A stretch of DNA of 38,162 nt from positions 1 to 38,162 of the forward strand of contig CAMZLH010000060.1 in NCBI GenBank assembly GCA_947311565.1. Reading direction: 5' to 3'. Of this stretch, positions 5,012-38,162 are shown piece by piece. Below the pieces are notes generated by a model, which worked only from the letters and a program-made list of their open reading frames with translations, had not been told where the DNA came from and did no database searches. Numbering within the stretch: the first letter of the stretch is position 1; each line of letters begins with the position of its first letter. The stretch comes from an uncultured Nitratifractor sp. (GTDB lineage Bacteria > Campylobacterota > Campylobacteria > Campylobacterales > Sulfurovaceae). The translations under genes and the position numbers were made by a program.

Positions 5012-6841
5012 ATGCAAGATGTTGTAGAGTGGCTAAAGCAAAATGGTAATTTAAAAGTAATAGATATACCTTTAGATATTGAGCTAGAGATTCCTCATGT
5101 AGCTTATGTAGAGGTTAAAGAAGATAACTCACAACCAATTCTATTTACAAAACCTATATATAAGAAAAAGGGTATCGAATATGATACTCCTGTTTTAATG
5201 AATATTTTTGCTAATAAAGATATTACTAGTAAAATATTTGCTAAAGAGCCAGACATTATAGGAGAGCAGATAGATAGTTTAATGAAATTCAAGCCACCAA
5301 AGGGGTTTTTAGATAAAATTAAGATGCTACCAAATGTAGTTAAACTTAAGAATATATTTCCTAAAAGAAGTAGCTCTAGAGGTGCATCTCAAGAGGTTAT
5401 TTGGCAAGGTAGCGATATTGATTTAGATAAGCTTCCAATTTTGAAAACTTGGGAAGAAGATGGTGGTAGATTTATAACTATGGGGCAAGTTTATACCCAA
5501 AGTCTTGATGGCTCTATGCAAAATGTCGGTATGTATAGGTTGCAACAGCTATCAAATAACACTCTTGCAATGCATTGGCAGATACACAAAGATGCAAGCA
5601 ATTTTTTTGACCAATATACTGAAGCTGGAAAGAAGATGCCAGTTAGCATTGGAATTGGTGGTGACCCTCTTTATATTTGGTGTGGTCAAGCACCTATGCC
5701 TCATGGAGTCTTTGAACTACTTTTATATGGACTTATTCGTAATAAAAATGCAAAATTGGTAAAAGGTATTACTAACGATATCTATGTACCAGAAGATGTA
5801 GATTTTGTAATAGAGGGGTTTGTTGATCCAACTAAATTTGCACCAGAGGGTCCATTTGGCGACCATACGGGTTATTATACTCTAATAGAGAATTTTCCAA
5901 TAATGGAAATTACTGCAATTACACACAAGAAAAACCCAGTATTTGCAGCAACAGTTGTTGGAAAACCACCTCTAGAAGATAAATATTTTGGATGGGCAAC
6001 AGAGAGAATATTTTTGCCACTTCTAAAGCCACTAGCCCCTGAACTAATTGATTATAATATGCCAGAAAACGGAGTCTTTCATAACCTAATACTAGCAAAG
6101 ATGCACCACAAATACCCAGGACATGCAAAGCAGTTTATGCATGCATTTTGGGGTGTTGGGCAGATGAGTTTTGTAAAACATGCAATATTTGTAAAAGATG
6201 ATGCACCAGAGCTTGAAGAGTTTGATAAGCTAACAAAGTATATTCTAAACAGAGTCAGCAAAGAGAGAATATTTATAAGTGAGGGTGTGGTTGATCACCT
6301 TGACCACTCAAGCCCAAAACAATTTGTAGGTGGAAAACTAGGAGTCGATGCAACTGGTGATATAGTAGAAAAAAGAGTTAAAGATATTAGCGATAAAGTG
6401 TTGCTTAAAAAGATGCAAGAGATTAATAGCAATATTTTATCACTAAAGAGTTACTACAAAGATACAGCAAATCCAATAACAGTAATTGCAGTTAAAAAGA
6501 GTGAATCTATGCTAAATCTATTTAAAAAGTTAGAGCCACTTAGTGAGTATTTATCTATATTGGTTGTAGTTGATAGCCAAAATAATGATTTAGATAACCC
6601 ATATATGTTAATTTGGAGAGTAGTTAATAATATTGATAGTAACCGTGATATTATTTTAGAGCCATTTATTGCCATAGATGGTACAAACAAAAATAAACTT
6701 GACGGATTTAACAGAGAGTGGCCAAAAGATGCAAACTGCACAAAAGAGGTACTTGATAGATTAAATAAGTTAAAAGTAATCGATATTGATGATGAGTTTA
6801 TAATTAAGCATAGCCTACTTGATTTTAATTTGTATAGATAG
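5012..6841 (+). CDS. UbiD-family decarboxylase (menaquinone biosynthesis decarboxylase)
   Basis: 609 aa; UbiD-type motifs including FAPEGPFGDHTGYY and VVGKPPLEDKYFG; mqnC in the same window fits the futalosine pathway. Confidence 0.9.
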   Translation: MQDVVEWLKQNGNLKVIDIPLDIELEIPHVAYVEVKEDNSQPILFTKPIYKKKGIEYDTPVLMNIFANKDITSKIFAKEPDIIGEQIDSLMKFKPPKGFLDKIKMLPNVVKLKNIFPKRSSSRGASQEVIWQGSDIDLDKLPILKTWEEDGGRFITMGQVYTQSLDGSMQNVGMYRLQQLSNNTLAMHWQIHKDASNFFDQYTEAGKKMPVSIGIGGDPLYIWCGQAPMPHGVFELLLYGLIRNKNAKLVKGITNDIYVPEDVDFVIEGFVDPTKFAPEGPFGDHTGYYTLIENFPIMEITAITHKKNPVFAATVVGKPPLEDKYFGWATERIFLPLLKPLAPELIDYNMPENGVFHNLILAKMHHKYPGHAKQFMHAFWGVGQMSFVKHAIFVKDDAPELEEFDKLTKYILNRVSKERIFISEGVVDHLDHSSPKQFVGGKLGVDATGDIVEKRVKDISDKVLLKKMQEINSNILSLKSYYKDTANPITVIAVKKSESMLNLFKKLEPLSEYLSILVVVDSQNNDLDNPYMLIWRVVNNIDSNRDIILEPFIAIDGTNKNKLDGFNREWPKDANCTKEVLDRLNKLKVIDIDDEFIIKHSLLDFNLYR

Positions 6842-6899
6842 ATTAACTAATCACTCTTATGATAAAGAGAGATTACTCTATATTGCCTCACTAAGGTAA

Positions 6900-7060
6900 A
6901 TAGATCAATTTTTGATAGAGTGATTTTGAAGCCCTACTCTTAGCTAAGGCAAAAGAATTAACAGATAAGTATGGGTAAAAGTACTGTACCCATACTGAAG
7001 AGCATTAGAAGGCAATCTGCAAGCAAAAAAACTTTTAAATTAAGAAGTTACTCCTAAAGA
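6900..7060 (+). pseudogene. Possible gene remnant
   Basis: Reading DFEALLLAKAKELTDKYG then stop, with a continuing-looking tail in another frame; contains the inverted repeat at 6968-6996. Confidence 0.25.
6968..6996. repeat. Inverted repeat AGTATGGGTA-aaagtactg-TACCCATACT
   Basis: Perfect 10-bp arms; between the convergent ubiD-like gene and purH. Confidence 0.6.
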
Positions 7061-7103
7061 TTTTTTAATATATTACCCACCTTAGTTCGTTTAATCATTA
7101 CTA

Positions 7104-8636
7104 TTAATGTAAGAAGTGTCTTACTGTAGTAAAGTACATAGAGATACTATGCTCATTAGCAGCCTCTATAACCTCTTCATCTCTAATACTTCCACCTGGT
7201 TGAATAATTGCACTTACTCCAGCAGCTGCCGCAGCATCAACAGAGTCTCTAAATGGGAAAAATGCTTCACTTGCTAGTGTTGAGCCACTAATATCTAGAC
7301 CCATCTCTTTAGCTTTTTTAATTGCACATTGTGCAGCATCTACACGGCTAGTCATACCCATCCCAACTGCTACCATTGCACCATTTTTTACATATACTAC
7401 ACAGTTACTCTTTGTAAGTCCTGCTACCTTCCATGCTATCTCTAAATCTAATAGCTGCTCAGCAGTTGCACTATCCGTTGTCACACATTTTGCATTTTTT
7501 ACTTCGTTATCGCATATACAGTCACTATTTTGATAGACAAATCCACCATTAATATGTTTAAAGTCATATTTATCATTAGAAGTTAATAGTCTTTCACTAT
7601 TAAAGCTAAATAGTTTTAATCTCTTCTTCTTACTAAACTCCTCTATAGCCTCTTTAGTAAAGTCACCTGCTACTATAACTTCTAGGAATATCTCATTCAT
7701 CTTTTTTGCAAGCTCTAAATCTACAACGCCATTTACTGCTACAACTCCACCAAATGCAGAGATAGGATCGCACTTAAGAGCCTCTGTATAAGAGTTAAAT
7801 AGTCTATCTTTAATTGCAAATCCACATGGGTTTCCATGTTTAACAATACAAACTGCATCTTTCTCTCCAAAACTTGAAGCTATCTTTAAAGCACCATTAA
7901 TATCTGTTAGGTTATTAAAACTAGCTTCACCTTTTACACTGTTAAAGTTTTGACTATAAAAGTTCTCAAACTCGTAAAGTGCACCATCTTGATGAGGATT
8001 TTCACCATATCTTGTATTAAATGCCTTTTTACCAACTATAAATTGCTTATCACCAAAGCCACTATTATATCTTTGATTCATATAGTTAGCTATCATACTA
8101 TCATATGCTGCTGTATGCTCATAAGCCTTTATCATTAAGTCTCTTCGGAATTCAAAACTATCACTCTTAGTTTTTACTGCCTCTATAACTTTAGAGTAGT
8201 CGCTACTATCTGTTACAATTAAAACATCTTTAAAGTTTTTAGCAGCACTTCTAACCATTGTTGGTCCACCAATATCGATATTTTCTATAATTTCATCAAA
8301 ATCATCTGTTCTCTCTATTGTCTCTTTAAATGGATATAAGTTTACACATACTAAATCTATGCCTTCAATTTCTAGCTCTTTTGCTTGCGATGCATGAGAC
8401 TCGTTATCTCTTTTGTATAAAATACCTCCATGTACATATGGATTTAGTGTTTTAACACGCCCCTCAAAGCACTCTGGAAATTTAGTAATTTTGTCTATTT
8501 CTACAACATCTATACCACTCTCTTGTAGTCTCTTATATGTACCACCTGTTGATACTATCTCAAACCCAAGGCTACTTAGCTCTTTTGCAAACTCAACTAC
8601 GCCGCTTTTATCACTTACACTTAAAAGTGCTCTCAT
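7104..8636 (-). CDS. purH: Bifunctional AICAR transformylase / IMP cyclohydrolase
   Basis: [41 protein letters not shown] and C-terminal [32 protein letters not shown]. Confidence 0.97.
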
Positions 8637-32203: not shown

Positions 32204-33484
32204 TTATCTATTAGTTACAATAAAAAGACTCATATCTAAAATCTCTTTATGCTCTTTAATAAAACTATTTACTTCATCTAACTTTAAATTTTCTATAATA
32301 TCCAACTCTTTTTGGCTAAATCCAAGACCTAAGCCACTATAGTACTCACTAAAAGCTCTACCTACTCTTTGCGATAGTATCTCTACACGAAGTGGCTCAC
32401 TACCTAAAAAGAACTTTTTAGCACTTTCTAGCTCATCATTAGTTATACCATTTTTAACAAAATTCTCTACCACCTCTTTAACTACACCTATAGCCTCGGT
32501 CTGTTTCTCTAATTTTGTTTGTAAATATCCACTAAAATAACTACTACTTCTATTTACAACAAATCTACTATATGCAGAGTAAGCAAGACCTCTTTTAACT
32601 CTTACCTCTTCCATAAGGCGACTACCAAAACCACTACTACCCAATATATGAGAAGCAACTTTACCTATAACTTTTTTTGTATCATTTACATCCATAGTAT
32701 ATGGTGCGCCAAAGTAAATATAAGCTTGTTTAGTATCTTTTTTTATACTTTTTGTCTCTTTAGAACTATTTGCAATATATTTACCAATTTCTTCTACTTT
32801 ACCTCTAGTTAAATTAGAGGCAAACTTTTTTACTATAGATTTAATCTCATCTTTAGTAAAGTTACCACCAGCAACTACAATTAAATTATCTAACCTAATG
32901 TGACTATTAATAAACTCTTTTAAATCATCTAACTTTAAAGCCTTAATAGACTCTTTTGTACCAAGAGAAGGCTCTTCTAAAGGTGTTCCTTTAAATAGTA
33001 TCGAGCGTAATCCATTAGCTGCTATGTAATCAAAATCATCTTGTTTTTTCTCTAAAATAGCTAATCTCTTCTTTACTATTTTTTTAAAGACTTCATCTTT
33101 ATAGTTAGGTGATTTTACTACACTTATTAGCTTATCTAAGGCAAAATCGAACTGCTCCTTTAGGGATTCAATAGTAAAGACTAGAGTCTCTCTACCATTA
33201 TGTACGCTTAAATCTATTGCTCTATTCTCTAACTCTTTAGCAAACTCTATAGAACCTAATTTAATATCACCTTCATTTAAAAGGCTACTGCTCATTGTTA
33301 CTAAACCATTTTTACTAGAGGCCAAATTACCACTATTTTTAAATATAAACTCAACAGTTGTTAAAGGTAGCGCACTACTCTCTTCAAAAACTACTGGAAC
33401 ATCTACACCATCTATAGTTACATGTAGTAAATTTGCTGCCATTAGGTATCCTTGTATTAAAATTAAAGGTAAAATTTTTTTCAT
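32204..33484 (-). CDS. M16-family (insulinase-like) protein, apparently without the HxxEH zinc motif
   Basis: M16 fold signatures (FKNSGNLASSKNGLVTMSSSLLNEG, GSSGFGSRLMEEVRVKRGLAYSAYS); no HxxEH seen in the N-terminal half. Confidence 0.8.
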   Translation of the reverse strand: MKKILPLILIQGYLMAANLLHVTIDGVDVPVVFEESSALPLTTVEFIFKNSGNLASSKNGLVTMSSSLLNEGDIKLGSIEFAKELENRAIDLSVHNGRETLVFTIESLKEQFDFALDKLISVVKSPNYKDEVFKKIVKKRLAILEKKQDDFDYIAANGLRSILFKGTPLEEPSLGTKESIKALKLDDLKEFINSHIRLDNLIVVAGGNFTKDEIKSIVKKFASNLTRGKVEEIGKYIANSSKETKSIKKDTKQAYIYFGAPYTMDVNDTKKVIGKVASHILGSSGFGSRLMEEVRVKRGLAYSAYSRFVVNRSSSYFSGYLQTKLEKQTEAIGVVKEVVENFVKNGITNDELESAKKFFLGSEPLRVEILSQRVGRAFSEYYSGLGLGFSQKELDIIENLKLDEVNSFIKEHKEILDMSLFIVTNR

Positions 33485-33555
33485 ATATTCCTCTTTTAAG
33501 ATTAAAGCTTAATATTATATCAAAATTAATCTCTACAAAATTTTATACTATAAGC

Positions 33556-34626
33556 TTAATAAAATCTCTCTAAAATATTATAAGCTGTATCTCTCTTTGC
33601 AGGGTTTTCTCCAATATCTTTAATAAGCTCTATCATCTCTTGCTGATTCATACTATTTTCTGCTCCTGCAGCTGATACTACATTCTCTTCCATCATTGTA
33701 GAACCTAAATCGTTAGCACCCCAAAGTAGTGCAAGTTGCCCAATATAGCTACCTTGTGTCACCCAAGAACTTTGTATATTTTTAACATTATCAAGGTATA
33801 ATCTTGCAACAGCAAGTAGTCTTAAGTATCTATTAGAGCTCTGCTTTTTAATATCTGGTCTCTTTTTCATAAGAGCAGTATTAGCACCTTGAAATGACCA
33901 CATAATAAATGCCCTAAAGCCACCTGTCACATCTTGTAGATCTCTTACAACTTCTAGATGTTCTAGTATCTGCTCATCACTTTCTACTGTTCCATACATC
34001 ATTGTTGCAGTAGACTTTACACCTACTTTATGAGCCTCTCTATGTACATCTAACCATCTATCTCTATCTAACTTTTTTGGTGCAATTTGATCTCGTACAT
34101 CATCATTTAAAATTTCTGCACCAGCACCAGGAATAGAGCTTAACCCTTTACTCTTTAGCCTTAGTAAAACCTCTTCTAAAGATATATTAGATCGTTTTGC
34201 TATATAGTCTATCTCTATAGCAGAGAAACCATGAATTGTAACCTGTGGATATTTTTTATGAATATGTTCTACTAAATCTTCATACCACTCTATCTCTAGC
34301 TTAGGGTGTACACCACCTTGAAATAGAATTTGTGTTCCACCAATTGCTAATAGTTCATCTATCTTATTATCTATCTCTTCAAAAGTTAAAATATATGCAT
34401 CTTCATCTTTTTCATGTCTATAAAATGCACAAAAATCGCAATCTACCCAACATATATTTGTATAGTTTATATTTCTATCTACAACAAAAGTTGTAACACC
34501 TTTAGGATGCAACTCTTTTTTCTTTTTAGATGCCAATTCGCCTAGCTCTTTTAAAGATGCATTTTTAAGTAGCCAAAGAGCATCTTCTTTAGATAATCTT
34601 TTAGAAAAATCTATGTTTAAACCCAA
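33556..34626 (-). CDS. mqnC: Cyclic dehypoxanthinyl futalosine synthase (radical SAM)
   Basis: NINYTNICWVDCDFCAFYRHEKDEDAYILTFEEI, GGTQILFQGGVHPKL, GAGAEIL. Confidence 0.94.
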   Translation of the reverse strand: MGLNIDFSKRLSKEDALWLLKNASLKELGELASKKKKELHPKGVTTFVVDRNINYTNICWVDCDFCAFYRHEKDEDAYILTFEEIDNKIDELLAIGGTQILFQGGVHPKLEIEWYEDLVEHIHKKYPQVTIHGFSAIEIDYIAKRSNISLEEVLLRLKSKGLSSIPGAGAEILNDDVRDQIAPKKLDRDRWLDVHREAHKVGVKSTATMMYGTVESDEQILEHLEVVRDLQDVTGGFRAFIMWSFQGANTALMKKRPDIKKQSSNRYLRLLAVARLYLDNVKNIQSSWVTQGSYIGQLALLWGANDLGSTMMEENVVSAAGAENSMNQQEMIELIKDIGENPAKRDTAYNILERFY

Positions 34627-34628
34627 AG

Positions 34629-35024
34629 CTACTCCTTGCCTAACGAATCTAACACACCATTTATAAATTGATGAGACTTATCATCTGCTAACTCTTTAGC
34701 TAGCTCTATCGCTTCATTAATAATTATAGCTTTATCATTACCATCTATTAAAATTTCGTAACAACCCAACCTTAAAATTGATCTCTCTATCTTACCTAAC
34801 TCATCAAAATCCCACTGATTAAGGTTCTTCTTAATTTCTTTGTCTATTGTCTCTAAATTCTCTACAGTACCACTAAATAGTTTTAAAGAGAACTCTCTTT
34901 GTTTATTACGTATTTTTTTCTCTTCTAAAATATCTTCGCAAAATTTTGTAATCTCTTCATTACCTAAGTCGTAAGCGTATAACAAACCAATAACAGCGGC
35001 TCTAGCTTGGTGTCTTGTAGCCAT
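34629..35024 (-). CDS. nusB: Transcription antitermination factor NusB
   Basis: [21 protein letters not shown] ... ILRLGCYEIL, IIINEAIELAKELADDKSHQFINGVLD. Confidence 0.93.
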   Translation of the reverse strand: MATRHQARAAVIGLLYAYDLGNEEITKFCEDILEEKKIRNKQREFSLKLFSGTVENLETIDKEIKKNLNQWDFDELGKIERSILRLGCYEILIDGNDKAIIINEAIELAKELADDKSHQFINGVLDSLGKE

Positions 35025-35491
35025 TATGAAAGCTCACTATATAAATTGATCATCTCTACCAAACTAGCCATAGCCTCTGCACCTTTATTACCTGCTTTTG
35101 TTCCTGCTCTCTCAATTGCTTGCTCTATACTATCTACTGTAAGTACTCCAAAAGATACTGGTTTAGCATACTTTAATGCAACATTAGCAACACCTTTAGT
35201 TGCCTCTGCACTTACATAGTCAAAGTGTGGTGTAGCACCTCTAATTACTGCACCCAAACAGCATATAGCATCGTACTTGCCAGTAGCAAGAGCTTTATCT
35301 AAAGCAAATGGGATCTCAAATGCGCCAGGCACTAAAATTAGATCTAAATTATCAGAATTTCCACCATGTCTTGCATAAAAATCTTTAGCACCCTCAACTA
35401 ATCTATCTGTTATAAAATGATTAAATCTTGCACTAATTACTGCAACTTTTTTACTACTATCTACTTGTAAATTTCCTTCTACTATATTCAT
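35024..35491 (-). CDS. ribH: 6,7-dimethyl-8-ribityllumazine synthase
   Basis: [52 protein letters not shown]. Confidence 0.96.
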
Positions 35492-35499
35492 TTAAATCC

Positions 35500-36294
35500 T
35501 TATATTATTTGTATTTGTTTTATCTGTTCTACTAACTCTTTAAGCTTATCTAATTTTATCATATTAGCTCCATCACTTAATGCAATTGATGGGTCAAAGT
35601 GTGTCTCAAAGAAAAATCCATCAACACCTACAGCAGCTGCAGCTCTAGAGAGTGGTGGTACAAAAGAGCTGTCACCTCCACTACTTGCTCCACCACTTGC
35701 AGGCATCTGTACAGAGTGTGTAGCATCAAAAATAGTTGGTGCAAACTCTCTCATTACTACTAAGCTTCTCATATCTACAACCAAATTTCCATATCCAAAG
35801 CTACTGCCTCTCTCGGTTAGCCAGACACCATATTTCTTAGCTTCACTGTAGCTAACATCACCATTGAAGCCACGAGTTTTTAAAACCTTTTTAACAGAGT
35901 GCTCCATTGCTTGTGGTGCTAAAAACTGCCCCTTTTTAATATTTACAATAGATGCTGTATTTGCAGCAGCTACTAAAAGATCTGTCTGTCTACAAAGAAA
36001 AGCAGGAATCTGTAATACATCTGCAACTTCACTAACAACACTAGCTTGTGAACTCTCGTGAATATCAGTTAATATCTTATATCCAAACTCTTTTTTTACC
36101 TCTTCTAAAAGCTTTAGTCCCTCATCTACTCCTGGACCTCTAAAACTATCTATACTTGTTCTATTTGCTTTATCAAAACTAGCTTTAAAGTAAAAATCTA
36201 TACTACAATCTTCACTATACTCTTTAAGCTCTTCAGCAATCTTAAAAACATTATCACGACTCTCCAAAACACAAGGACCAGCAATTAAAATCAA
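35500..36294 (-). CDS. kdsA: 3-deoxy-8-phosphooctulonate synthase
   Basis: [59 protein letters not shown]-like, [10 protein letters not shown]. Confidence 0.96.
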
Positions 36295-36451
36295 AATACA
36301 CCTTTTTTGATTGGATTATAGCAAAAATAATATTAATATTGTAGAAATATTACAAATACGACGCCTAAGTATTTAAATACGCAATTCTAAGCTCTATAAT
36401 CAGTAAAAATATAGAGTTGTTACTCTCTCTTTACTTAGCTACGACTAGCAG

Positions 36452-36489
36452 TAAACCTTAACAAAAGCTAGTGATGTTGTTAGGGTTTA
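36452..36489. repeat. 13-bp-arm hairpin in the kdsA-ATPase intergenic region
   Basis: taaaccttaacaa-aagctagtgatg-ttgttagggttta; one wobble position. Confidence 0.5.
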
Positions 36490-36623
36490 GGTTAATCAGA
36501 AGGTTCTATTTAACATAAATTATTTCAGAGTCTATAAAAGCCTATCTAAAGACTCAAAACTAGATACTTTATATTAGTATAAAATATGCTATAATTGGCA
36601 CAATAATATAAAAAAGGCTACTT

Positions 36624-38162
36624 GTGGAACTTGTATATTTGTGGGTAGAAGAGTATAAAAATATTAAAAATCAAGGTTTTAACTTTTATCCAAGATTTAG
36701 GTATGAATTTAAAGCTGTTTATAAAAAAGATGAAAATGGTAAGAAAGTTTTAGATGAAGAGAATAGTGAATTAATTATAGAAGAGAATGATGACTATATA
36801 GAGAACTTTTTTGGCGAAAATATTAATGTGACAGCTATTGTTGGGAAGAATGGGAGTGGGAAGAGTAATACATTAGAATTATTAATTAAAATAGCGAATA
36901 AATATACTTTACTAAATACAACATGTTTTTTTATTTATAGAAAAATTGAAAAATGGTATATAGTAGGAAGGGTGATGCCTACTTGTAATGTTGATTTAGA
37001 AGATTCATTTTTTAATGGTAATGAGTCAATAAATTGGATTAATTATTTGTACTCACGAAATGATAATCTACTTAAAAAGTATATAGAACGACAAAGTATG
37101 TTTAATGGATACGGGGGTAATTATATATGGAAACATACACAAGTATATAATAGATTTTCAAATATTTTATCTTCATTAGAGAAGAAATATAAATTCAATA
37201 CATTTTTACTGAAAATAAAACTTGTGAATAAAAAAATTATAGAAGAGAAAGATTTTGACAATAATACAATTTTAAAAAGTGATACTATTAAATTTTGTGA
37301 AAAGATTATAAGTAGTTTTTATTCTAAAAAACAACGTTTGTCTGTAAACTCTATAAAAAATTTAACAATTGAATCATTATTATCACATAATGCTTTTTTA
37401 CTTTTTGTGACTTTTTATATTATGAATAAAGATAATTTAGAATTGACAGAAGATAACTTTGTAATTTGTCTCCAAGCTTTAGAAAATAATAATATTAATT
37501 TTATATTTGAAAAATTAGATGAGTTTAATAAATCACTTAATGAAGATAATGATTTTGAAATATATTTTCAACAACTTAAATTTTTAAAACAAAATATAGA
37601 TAAATTTGTTTTTGATGGTAATGAATTCTATATTTGGGAAGTTCCATTATCCGAGAAAGATACTATTTCGAAGATTATTGATAATACAAAAGTAATATCT
37701 GGAATTTTTGACCCTGCAACATTCTATTATCTAATAGAATCAGTTTATTATGATTTTTCCAATAATGAGACAAATATATTTTATAATGACTTATCTGAGG
37801 GAGAAAAAGAAATTTTTAAAATATCTATTGACTTTTTACATCATTTAGATTTTAACAGTAATGATTCTATATTTATTTTTGATGAAATAGATAATTCTTT
37901 GCATCCCATATGGAAAAAAGAAATTTTTAAAATTTTAATGAATCTTTTCAATCAATTTAAAAAAAAACATAATAATAAAAATATACATCTGATTTTAACA
38001 ACTCATTCTCCATTTTTATTGTCTGATATTCCAAAAGAAAATATTATTTTTTTAAAAGATGGAAAAAATGATAAAGGTATAAATCATAAACAAACCTTCG
38101 GAGCAAATATCCACACCCTTTTAAGCGATAGTTTCTTTATGGAAGATGGGTTGATGGGGGAG
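36624..38162 (+). CDS. AAA ATPase (SMC/OLD-like, possibly PtuA-type), partial: runs off the right edge
   Basis: Open from GTG 36624 to the window end (513 codons): MELVYLWVEEYKNIKNQGFNFYPRF..., Walker A IVGKNGSGKSN, signature LSEGEKEIFKIS, Walker B IFIFDEIDNSLHP, H-switch LTTHSPFLLSDIP, ...NIHTLLSDSFFMEDGLMGE. Absent from the ORF track, presumably because no stop lies inside the window. Confidence 0.85.
   Translation, partial: MELVYLWVEEYKNIKNQGFNFYPRFRYEFKAVYKKDENGKKVLDEENSELIIEENDDYIENFFGENINVTAIVGKNGSGKSNTLELLIKIANKYTLLNTTCFFIYRKIEKWYIVGRVMPTCNVDLEDSFFNGNESINWINYLYSRNDNLLKKYIERQSMFNGYGGNYIWKHTQVYNRFSNILSSLEKKYKFNTFLLKIKLVNKKIIEEKDFDNNTILKSDTIKFCEKIISSFYSKKQRLSVNSIKNLTIESLLSHNAFLLFVTFYIMNKDNLELTEDNFVICLQALENNNINFIFEKLDEFNKSLNEDNDFEIYFQQLKFLKQNIDKFVFDGNEFYIWEVPLSEKDTISKIIDNTKVISGIFDPATFYYLIESVYYDFSNNETNIFYNDLSEGEKEIFKISIDFLHHLDFNSNDSIFIFDEIDNSLHPIWKKEIFKILMNLFNQFKKKHNNKNIHLILTTHSPFLLSDIPKENIIFLKDGKNDKGINHKQTFGANIHTLLSDSFFMEDGLMGE

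Follow-up and report, generated by a model that had tools for sequence, protein, structure and literature searches.

The open reading frame at 36624–38162 of the window (the whole stretch of DNA that was analysed, 38,162 nucleotides in length) is likely to encode the ATPase of a two-gene, Septu-like ATPase-HNH system of the PDC-M62 type, whose interiors appear to be exchanged at fixed chromosomal sites. The PDC-M62 system itself is an already listed predicted candidate related to Septu, and the locus described here would be expected to act in phage defence.

The truncated ATPase gene and its family

Contig C60, which is the entire window, ends in the assembly at 38162, and the reading frame runs from a GTG codon through 513 codons to this last base without a stop. 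Since the window is the full contig, the truncation comes from the assembly and not from the choice of window. The chance of 517 open codons is ~1e-18 at the base composition of the window, relatives measure about 480–665 amino acids, and the GTG start is plausible because relatives begin with MELVYLWVEEYKNI at the same position. The first-pass annotation had described an AAA ATPase open to the last base that carries Walker A, an LSEGEK signature and two further motifs; the gene proved to be real and cut short by the assembly, and all four motifs were found, as Walker A, ABC signature, Walker B and H-switch at residues 73–81, 390–395, 416–428 and 458–470, respectively. The features of the gene and its left flank are listed below, C18 being another contig of the same genome.

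35500..36294, − strand: kdsA (KDO-8-phosphate synthase), left chromosomal neighbour, outside the system
36295..36623, no strand: intergenic region from kdsA (reading left) to the ATPase, no Rfam family and no tRNA
36624..38162, + strand: SMC/ABC-type ATPase gene, PDC-M62A type, GTG start, 513 codons, open at the contig end
36624..36863, + strand: conserved 5' block, residues 1–80, MELVYLWVEEYKNI to Walker A, phylum-wide amino-acid identity 83–87% at residues 1–20 and 78% at residues 61–80
36734..36887, + strand: stretch common to the window and C18, 108 bp identical, then 96%
36840..36866, + strand: Walker A VGKNGSGKS, residues 73–81
36864..37778, + strand: hypervariable middle, residues 81–385, AT-rich, about 11% identity to any relative
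37791..37808, + strand: ABC signature LSEGEK, residues 390–395
37869..37907, + strand: Walker B / D-loop IFIFDEIDNSLHP, residues 416–428
37995..38033, + strand: H-switch LTTHSPFLLSDIP, residues 458–470
38094..38162, + strand: conserved 3' block TFGANIHTLLSDSFFMEDGLMGE, residues 491–513, GC-rich compared with the middle; the contig stops within this block

A PADLOC search, which had been proposed with the original description, returned PDC-M62A (PDLC04737) as the best of 5,027 models by a wide margin, with an E value of 5.7e-67 and an alignment of protein residues 2–513 to model positions 2–523 of 601, and the best PtuA model among them reached 7.8e-20. In Pfam the ATPase matched AAA_21 at 76 bits, with AAA_15 and SMC_N weaker, and it scored 52 bits against a cut-off of 500 for the curated NCBIfam PtuA model NF041760 (a retron Ec78 effector model) and 63 bits against a cut-off of 300 for the restriction-associated AAA ATPase model TIGR04435. 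An alignment profile search matched the structures of retron I-A PtuA, Septu PtuA and AriA, and a fold search using the predicted ATPase, a model of low confidence (pLDDT 60), gave the same structures.

The HNH partner, its distribution and known relatives

C18 starts with a second version of the ATPase that lacks the first 37 residues, and this overlaps by 14 nt a gene for a 303-aa HNH protein, with lpxB next. The HNH protein matches PDC-M62B (PDLC04743) with an E value of 6e-69; its gene is the only HNH gene counted in the whole assembly, and the window contig stops before the downstream neighbour of its own ATPase. Among 29 evaluable relatives, meaning those with a reasonably intact ATPase and sufficient downstream sequence and with C18 counted in, the HNH gene directly follows the ATPase, overlapping or abutting it, in 27. 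The exceptions are L009, where the HNH gene comes after an inserted nucleotidyltransferase-HEPN pair, and L021, where the ATPase (6001–7512) has no HNH gene and alaS is next. By eye the L009 pair (7704–8373, between ATPase and HNH, 4-nt overlap) is MNT-HEPN toxin-antitoxin-like, and a pair of the same type is present in L125 at 7431–8097, just 3' of the HNH gene. Truncated ATPase remnants were also seen in L039 and L042, and these, like the HNH-less ATPase of L021, are decay products of the system.

An HNH partner of the TIGR02646 or PtuB kind had been anticipated, and of this an HNH partner as such is supported by C18 and nearly all relatives; the C18 protein lies well below the TIGR02646 and PtuB cut-offs and scores 23 bits against 150 for NF041761 (a retron Ec78 effector model). 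Its alignment profile matches 9n69_F, a TIGR02646 HNH chain, while a fold search of the PDB with the predicted structure of the partner (L005 1683–2594, pLDDT 91) found no meaningful match. The protein combines a helical N-terminal region of 115 residues with a conserved HKRPLSKLIKDISEEL end, and in the predicted model the helical region is a possible new docking domain. In clustering, HNH pairs were filtered by length.

Relatives are encoded at 38 loci of GTDB genomes, and every locus with a named group belongs to Campylobacterota. Of 298 phylum members searched with the PDC-M62B model, 48 carry the HNH gene, and these represent 23 of 58 genera. The model also matches Sulfolobus acidocaldarius, used as a control genome, and the HNH family may thus extend to archaea. 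Mobile carriers amounted to just six IMG/VR viral contigs (L189–L194) with distant ATPase relatives at 36–42% identity, and plasmid matches were partial only.

Of the known systems, PDC-M62 as listed by PADLOC (A and B) has the same gene order and overlap, with A matching over the readable ATPase and B matching the C18 HNH protein. Septu (PtuA-PtuB) is likewise formed of an SMC/ABC ATPase gene followed by an HNH gene, the profile search matched E. coli PtuA (8ee4/8eea), and the Walker A, signature, Walker B and H-switch expected of such an ATPase are present here. However, the sequences are far below the curated PtuA and PtuB cut-offs, and the HNH protein differs from that of Septu in its long helical N-terminal region and conserved end. 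PDC-M62 and DefenseFinder Septu calls frequently duplicated each other in the B. cereus group, with 203 coinciding pairs (PMC11811056). PARIS AriA belongs to the same ATPase fold group, although PARIS has a Toprim-type AriB partner whereas the relatives and C18 have an HNH gene.

The first-pass annotation had placed the gene in a Septu- or retron-type locus. Retron I-A effectors (Retron-Eco7/Ec78 and Ec83) likewise comprise an ATPase and HNH pair, and their ATPases are the best-scoring solved relatives, which would favour a retron I-A locus of reverse transcriptase (RT), ncRNA, PtuA and PtuB. However, kdsA and not an RT lies upstream of the window ATPase, a YxDD scan around 61 ATPase genes of relatives found no adjoining RT-like gene, no Rfam family reached its gathering threshold in 33000–38162 (Rfam covers only part of the retron RNAs), and the scores against the NCBIfam retron PtuA and PtuB models are far below cut-off. 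A retron is therefore very improbable and was rejected; the HNH gene that follows the ATPase in relatives, together with the lack of an RT, argues for a Septu-type ATPase-HNH system, and it is this ATPase-HNH defence part of the original proposal that survives. The window copy could instead lack a nuclease partner, being an orphan or in decay, as might be read from the single HNH gene in the assembly, the HNH-less ATPase of L021 and the fragments in L039 and L042, but all of its motifs are intact over 513 codons and its conserved 3' block is intact up to the contig end, and we think this unlikely.

Conserved ends, variable interiors and fixed sites

Among Campylobacterota ATPases residues 1–20 are 83–87% identical, and residues 61–80, the Walker A region, have an identity of 0.77–0.78 across the phylum. 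In a set of 50 ATPases identity is 0.12–0.23 over residues 81–380 and 0.60–0.78 over residues 461–513, the C-terminal GANIHTLLSDSFFM block, with Walker B at 0.46 and so below the first 20 residues. The middle of the window ATPase (residues 81–385) is about 11% identical to its relatives, which is chance level, and it gave only two weak matches among 398 other genomes of the order; some distant middles align at 22–31%. Likewise, the last 20 residues of the HNH protein are conserved at 0.70 compared with 0.41–0.64 for the HNH motif. The first relatives had been found partly via N-terminal peptides; in a control set of 20 ATPases found via the HNH model or in congeners the conservation profile was unchanged, which rules out search bias as the cause of the conserved ends.

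The ATPase had been noted as more AT-rich than its neighbours, and its GC content is indeed 22.8% compared with 30.8% (sd 3.8) for the 29 other genes of the window, with the deficit localised to the interior at 36888–38078 (19–21%) and the conserved ends at 27–39%. With amino-acid content and host codon usage taken into account, GC3 of the window gene does not deviate at its N-terminus (0.00), is low in the middle (−0.08) and is high in the C block (+0.06). In relatives the mean GC3 of the middle is 0.145 (sd 0.03 between hosts) and that of flanking genes 0.333; corrected in this way, GC3 deviates most in the middle (−0.175), followed by the HNH body (−0.10) and the ATPase N-terminus (−0.05), and stands at +0.02 (not significant) in the last 28 HNH codons, and GC3 depends only weakly on the host in the middle (slope 0.15 versus 0.36–0.67 for the ends). 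Amino-acid bias is excluded as the cause of the low GC3 of the middle, as the effect persists after control, and the low values could come in part from weak selection on codons. Because the ends fit host codon use and the interior deviates from it, the ends look resident and the interior looks like a recent arrival from an AT-rich source.

Four Sulfurovum-type loci (L006, L008, L018 and L026) have colinear upstream DNA common to all four over at least 1.1 kb, with 1.1 kb at 89–91% identity in comparisons with L006 and 5–6 kb at 74–82% among the other three. Their DNA homology ends at ATPase nucleotides 208–222 (codons 70–74), just past Walker A, and resumes at the C-terminal block and, for L006 and L026, also downstream of the HNH gene; the middles are 6–12% identical and the HNH types differ. 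A gene for a 138-aa PIN-domain-like protein (VNVFLDANICLDLLD...) abuts the ATPase start at 0–1 nt in these loci (L006 699–1115, L008 and L018 both 5583–5999, L026 5584–6000) and lies on the side of the breakpoint that does not change. Eight genomes carry the system behind the same amidase gene, which is 0.90 identical; at this site the ATPase N-terminus is 0.78 identical, the middle 0.10 and the HNH end 0.89, and two of the eight (L178 and L019) have a different HNH body with a similar HNH end. At the purD site, in the window's own genus, L124 and L125 have the ATPase in common over most of its length (87% at the DNA level), their tails and HNH genes differ and the flank resumes at 90%, with a third version in L123. 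When labels were permuted over four sites, using a statistic that ignores species relatedness, site was predictive for the ATPase N-terminus, the tail and the HNH parts and not for the middle, whose similarity was 0.11 both within and between sites (p 0.157). The reverse arrangement is given by L031 and L172, which occupy different sites and are 85% identical in the middle and 95% in the C block, with 64%, 52% and 68% in the N-terminus, tail and HNH, respectively.

The unrelated middles at the same sites, the sharp breakpoints and the AT-rich composition of the middles together point to repeated cassette exchange through the conserved ends. The pattern could also have arisen with no exchange at all, if the middle were no more than an SMC-type insert of the usual fast-evolving kind, which diversifying selection drives apart through point mutations and small indels while the two ends of the protein stay constrained. 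SMC, Rad50 and OLD ATPases commonly have variable insert regions, so that the pattern is partly generic, and the alignment of distant middles at 22–31% implies common ancestry. Gradual change of this kind is nevertheless improbable in our view, given that locus-mates with ~90% identical neighbours have middles of 10% identity, the level of unrelated pairs, that DNA homology breaks off sharply, that L031 and L172 have near-matching middles beside N-termini only 64% identical, and that compositional foreignness is limited to the interior. We found no report of the exchange of ATPase interiors at fixed sites, for PDC-M62 or otherwise, in the literature searched, a scope outside which most subscription journals and preprints fell.

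Two versions in one genome and the proposed working

The first 108 bases of C18 are 100% identical to window positions 36734–36841, after which there is one mismatch and a short further match (96% to 36887) before the two diverge just past Walker A. ATPase residues 1–37 and the HNH gene each occur once in the assembly, which is 99.99% complete, and C18 begins exactly within C60-identical sequence; the most economical interpretation is a single locus, kdsA / ATPase-HNH / lpxB, of which the window and C18 versions may be two alleles in the sequenced population, and this would explain both gaps. Alternatively, they may be two separate loci in one cell, a kdsA-side and an lpxB-side paralogue, with the 5' stretch collapsed in the assembly and the HNH gene of the window copy unassembled. 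When the missing 3' part of the window ATPase was sought in its own genome, the C60 end matched only C18, over the last 84 bp and at just 80%, with no visible rejoining, and kdsA and lpxB are apart in the relatives examined, both of which favour two loci; the single copies and the exact start of C18 speak against them, as does the fact that lpxB no longer adjoins ubiD here, beside which it usually lies. We regard two loci as a serious contender, if somewhat short of an even chance. A tandem array between these genes was rejected, as kdsA and lpxB are not adjacent in relatives, and neither the ancestral gene order nor a synteny comparison with G009 distinguished one locus from two. ubiD (window 5012–6841) and lpxB (L005 2611–3651) are divergent neighbours in the four congeners examined, and their separation here suggests that a rearrangement touched the defence locus.

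Eco7 PtuAB and Septu EcB88 cut tRNA-Tyr on infection, another PtuAB is reported to cut DNA, and both ATPase and HNH are required for PtuAB (PMC11555353, PMC13096335); the tRNA-Tyr cleavage suggests a possible target for the HNH protein described here. In the working that we propose, the conserved N- and C-terminal halves would form an ATP-binding head and hold the docked HNH protein inactive in a complex, and the variable middle would sense a product of an infecting phage or a change that the phage brings about. The HNH nuclease would then be freed or activated through ATP turnover and would cut nucleic acid (tRNA or DNA, as PtuAB) and so stop the infection. Systems at fixed sites would be renewed by homologous recombination through the conserved ends, with the middle swapped for an unrelated version, and such a swap would often also take the ATPase tail and most of the HNH gene. 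The specificity gene hsdS of type I restriction systems has a similar layout, with exchangeable recognition parts set between conserved blocks, although here the exchanged part lies inside an ATPase and includes most of a nuclease gene.

More tentatively, and as a proposal that we hold to be somewhat less likely than not, the conserved ends may be recombination handles of an immune locus that shuffles alleles. Campylobacterota would have one or a few fixed sites that draw interchangeable sensor cassettes (the ATPase middle) and effector cassettes (the tail and HNH) from a common AT-rich pool, with the sequenced population carrying two such alleles at kdsA / ATPase-HNH / lpxB. To our knowledge, the trigger of most ATPase-effector defence systems is unknown. 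Here the head and the site stay constant, and often the nuclease as well, with only the middle replaced; this makes the middle the likely recognition part, and it probably is the part that senses the virus. If the exchange is as proposed, defence diversity would arise via the exchange of parts within genes at fixed sites and not via the gain and loss of entire systems, and the effector half could be exchanged on its own, as between L124 and L125.
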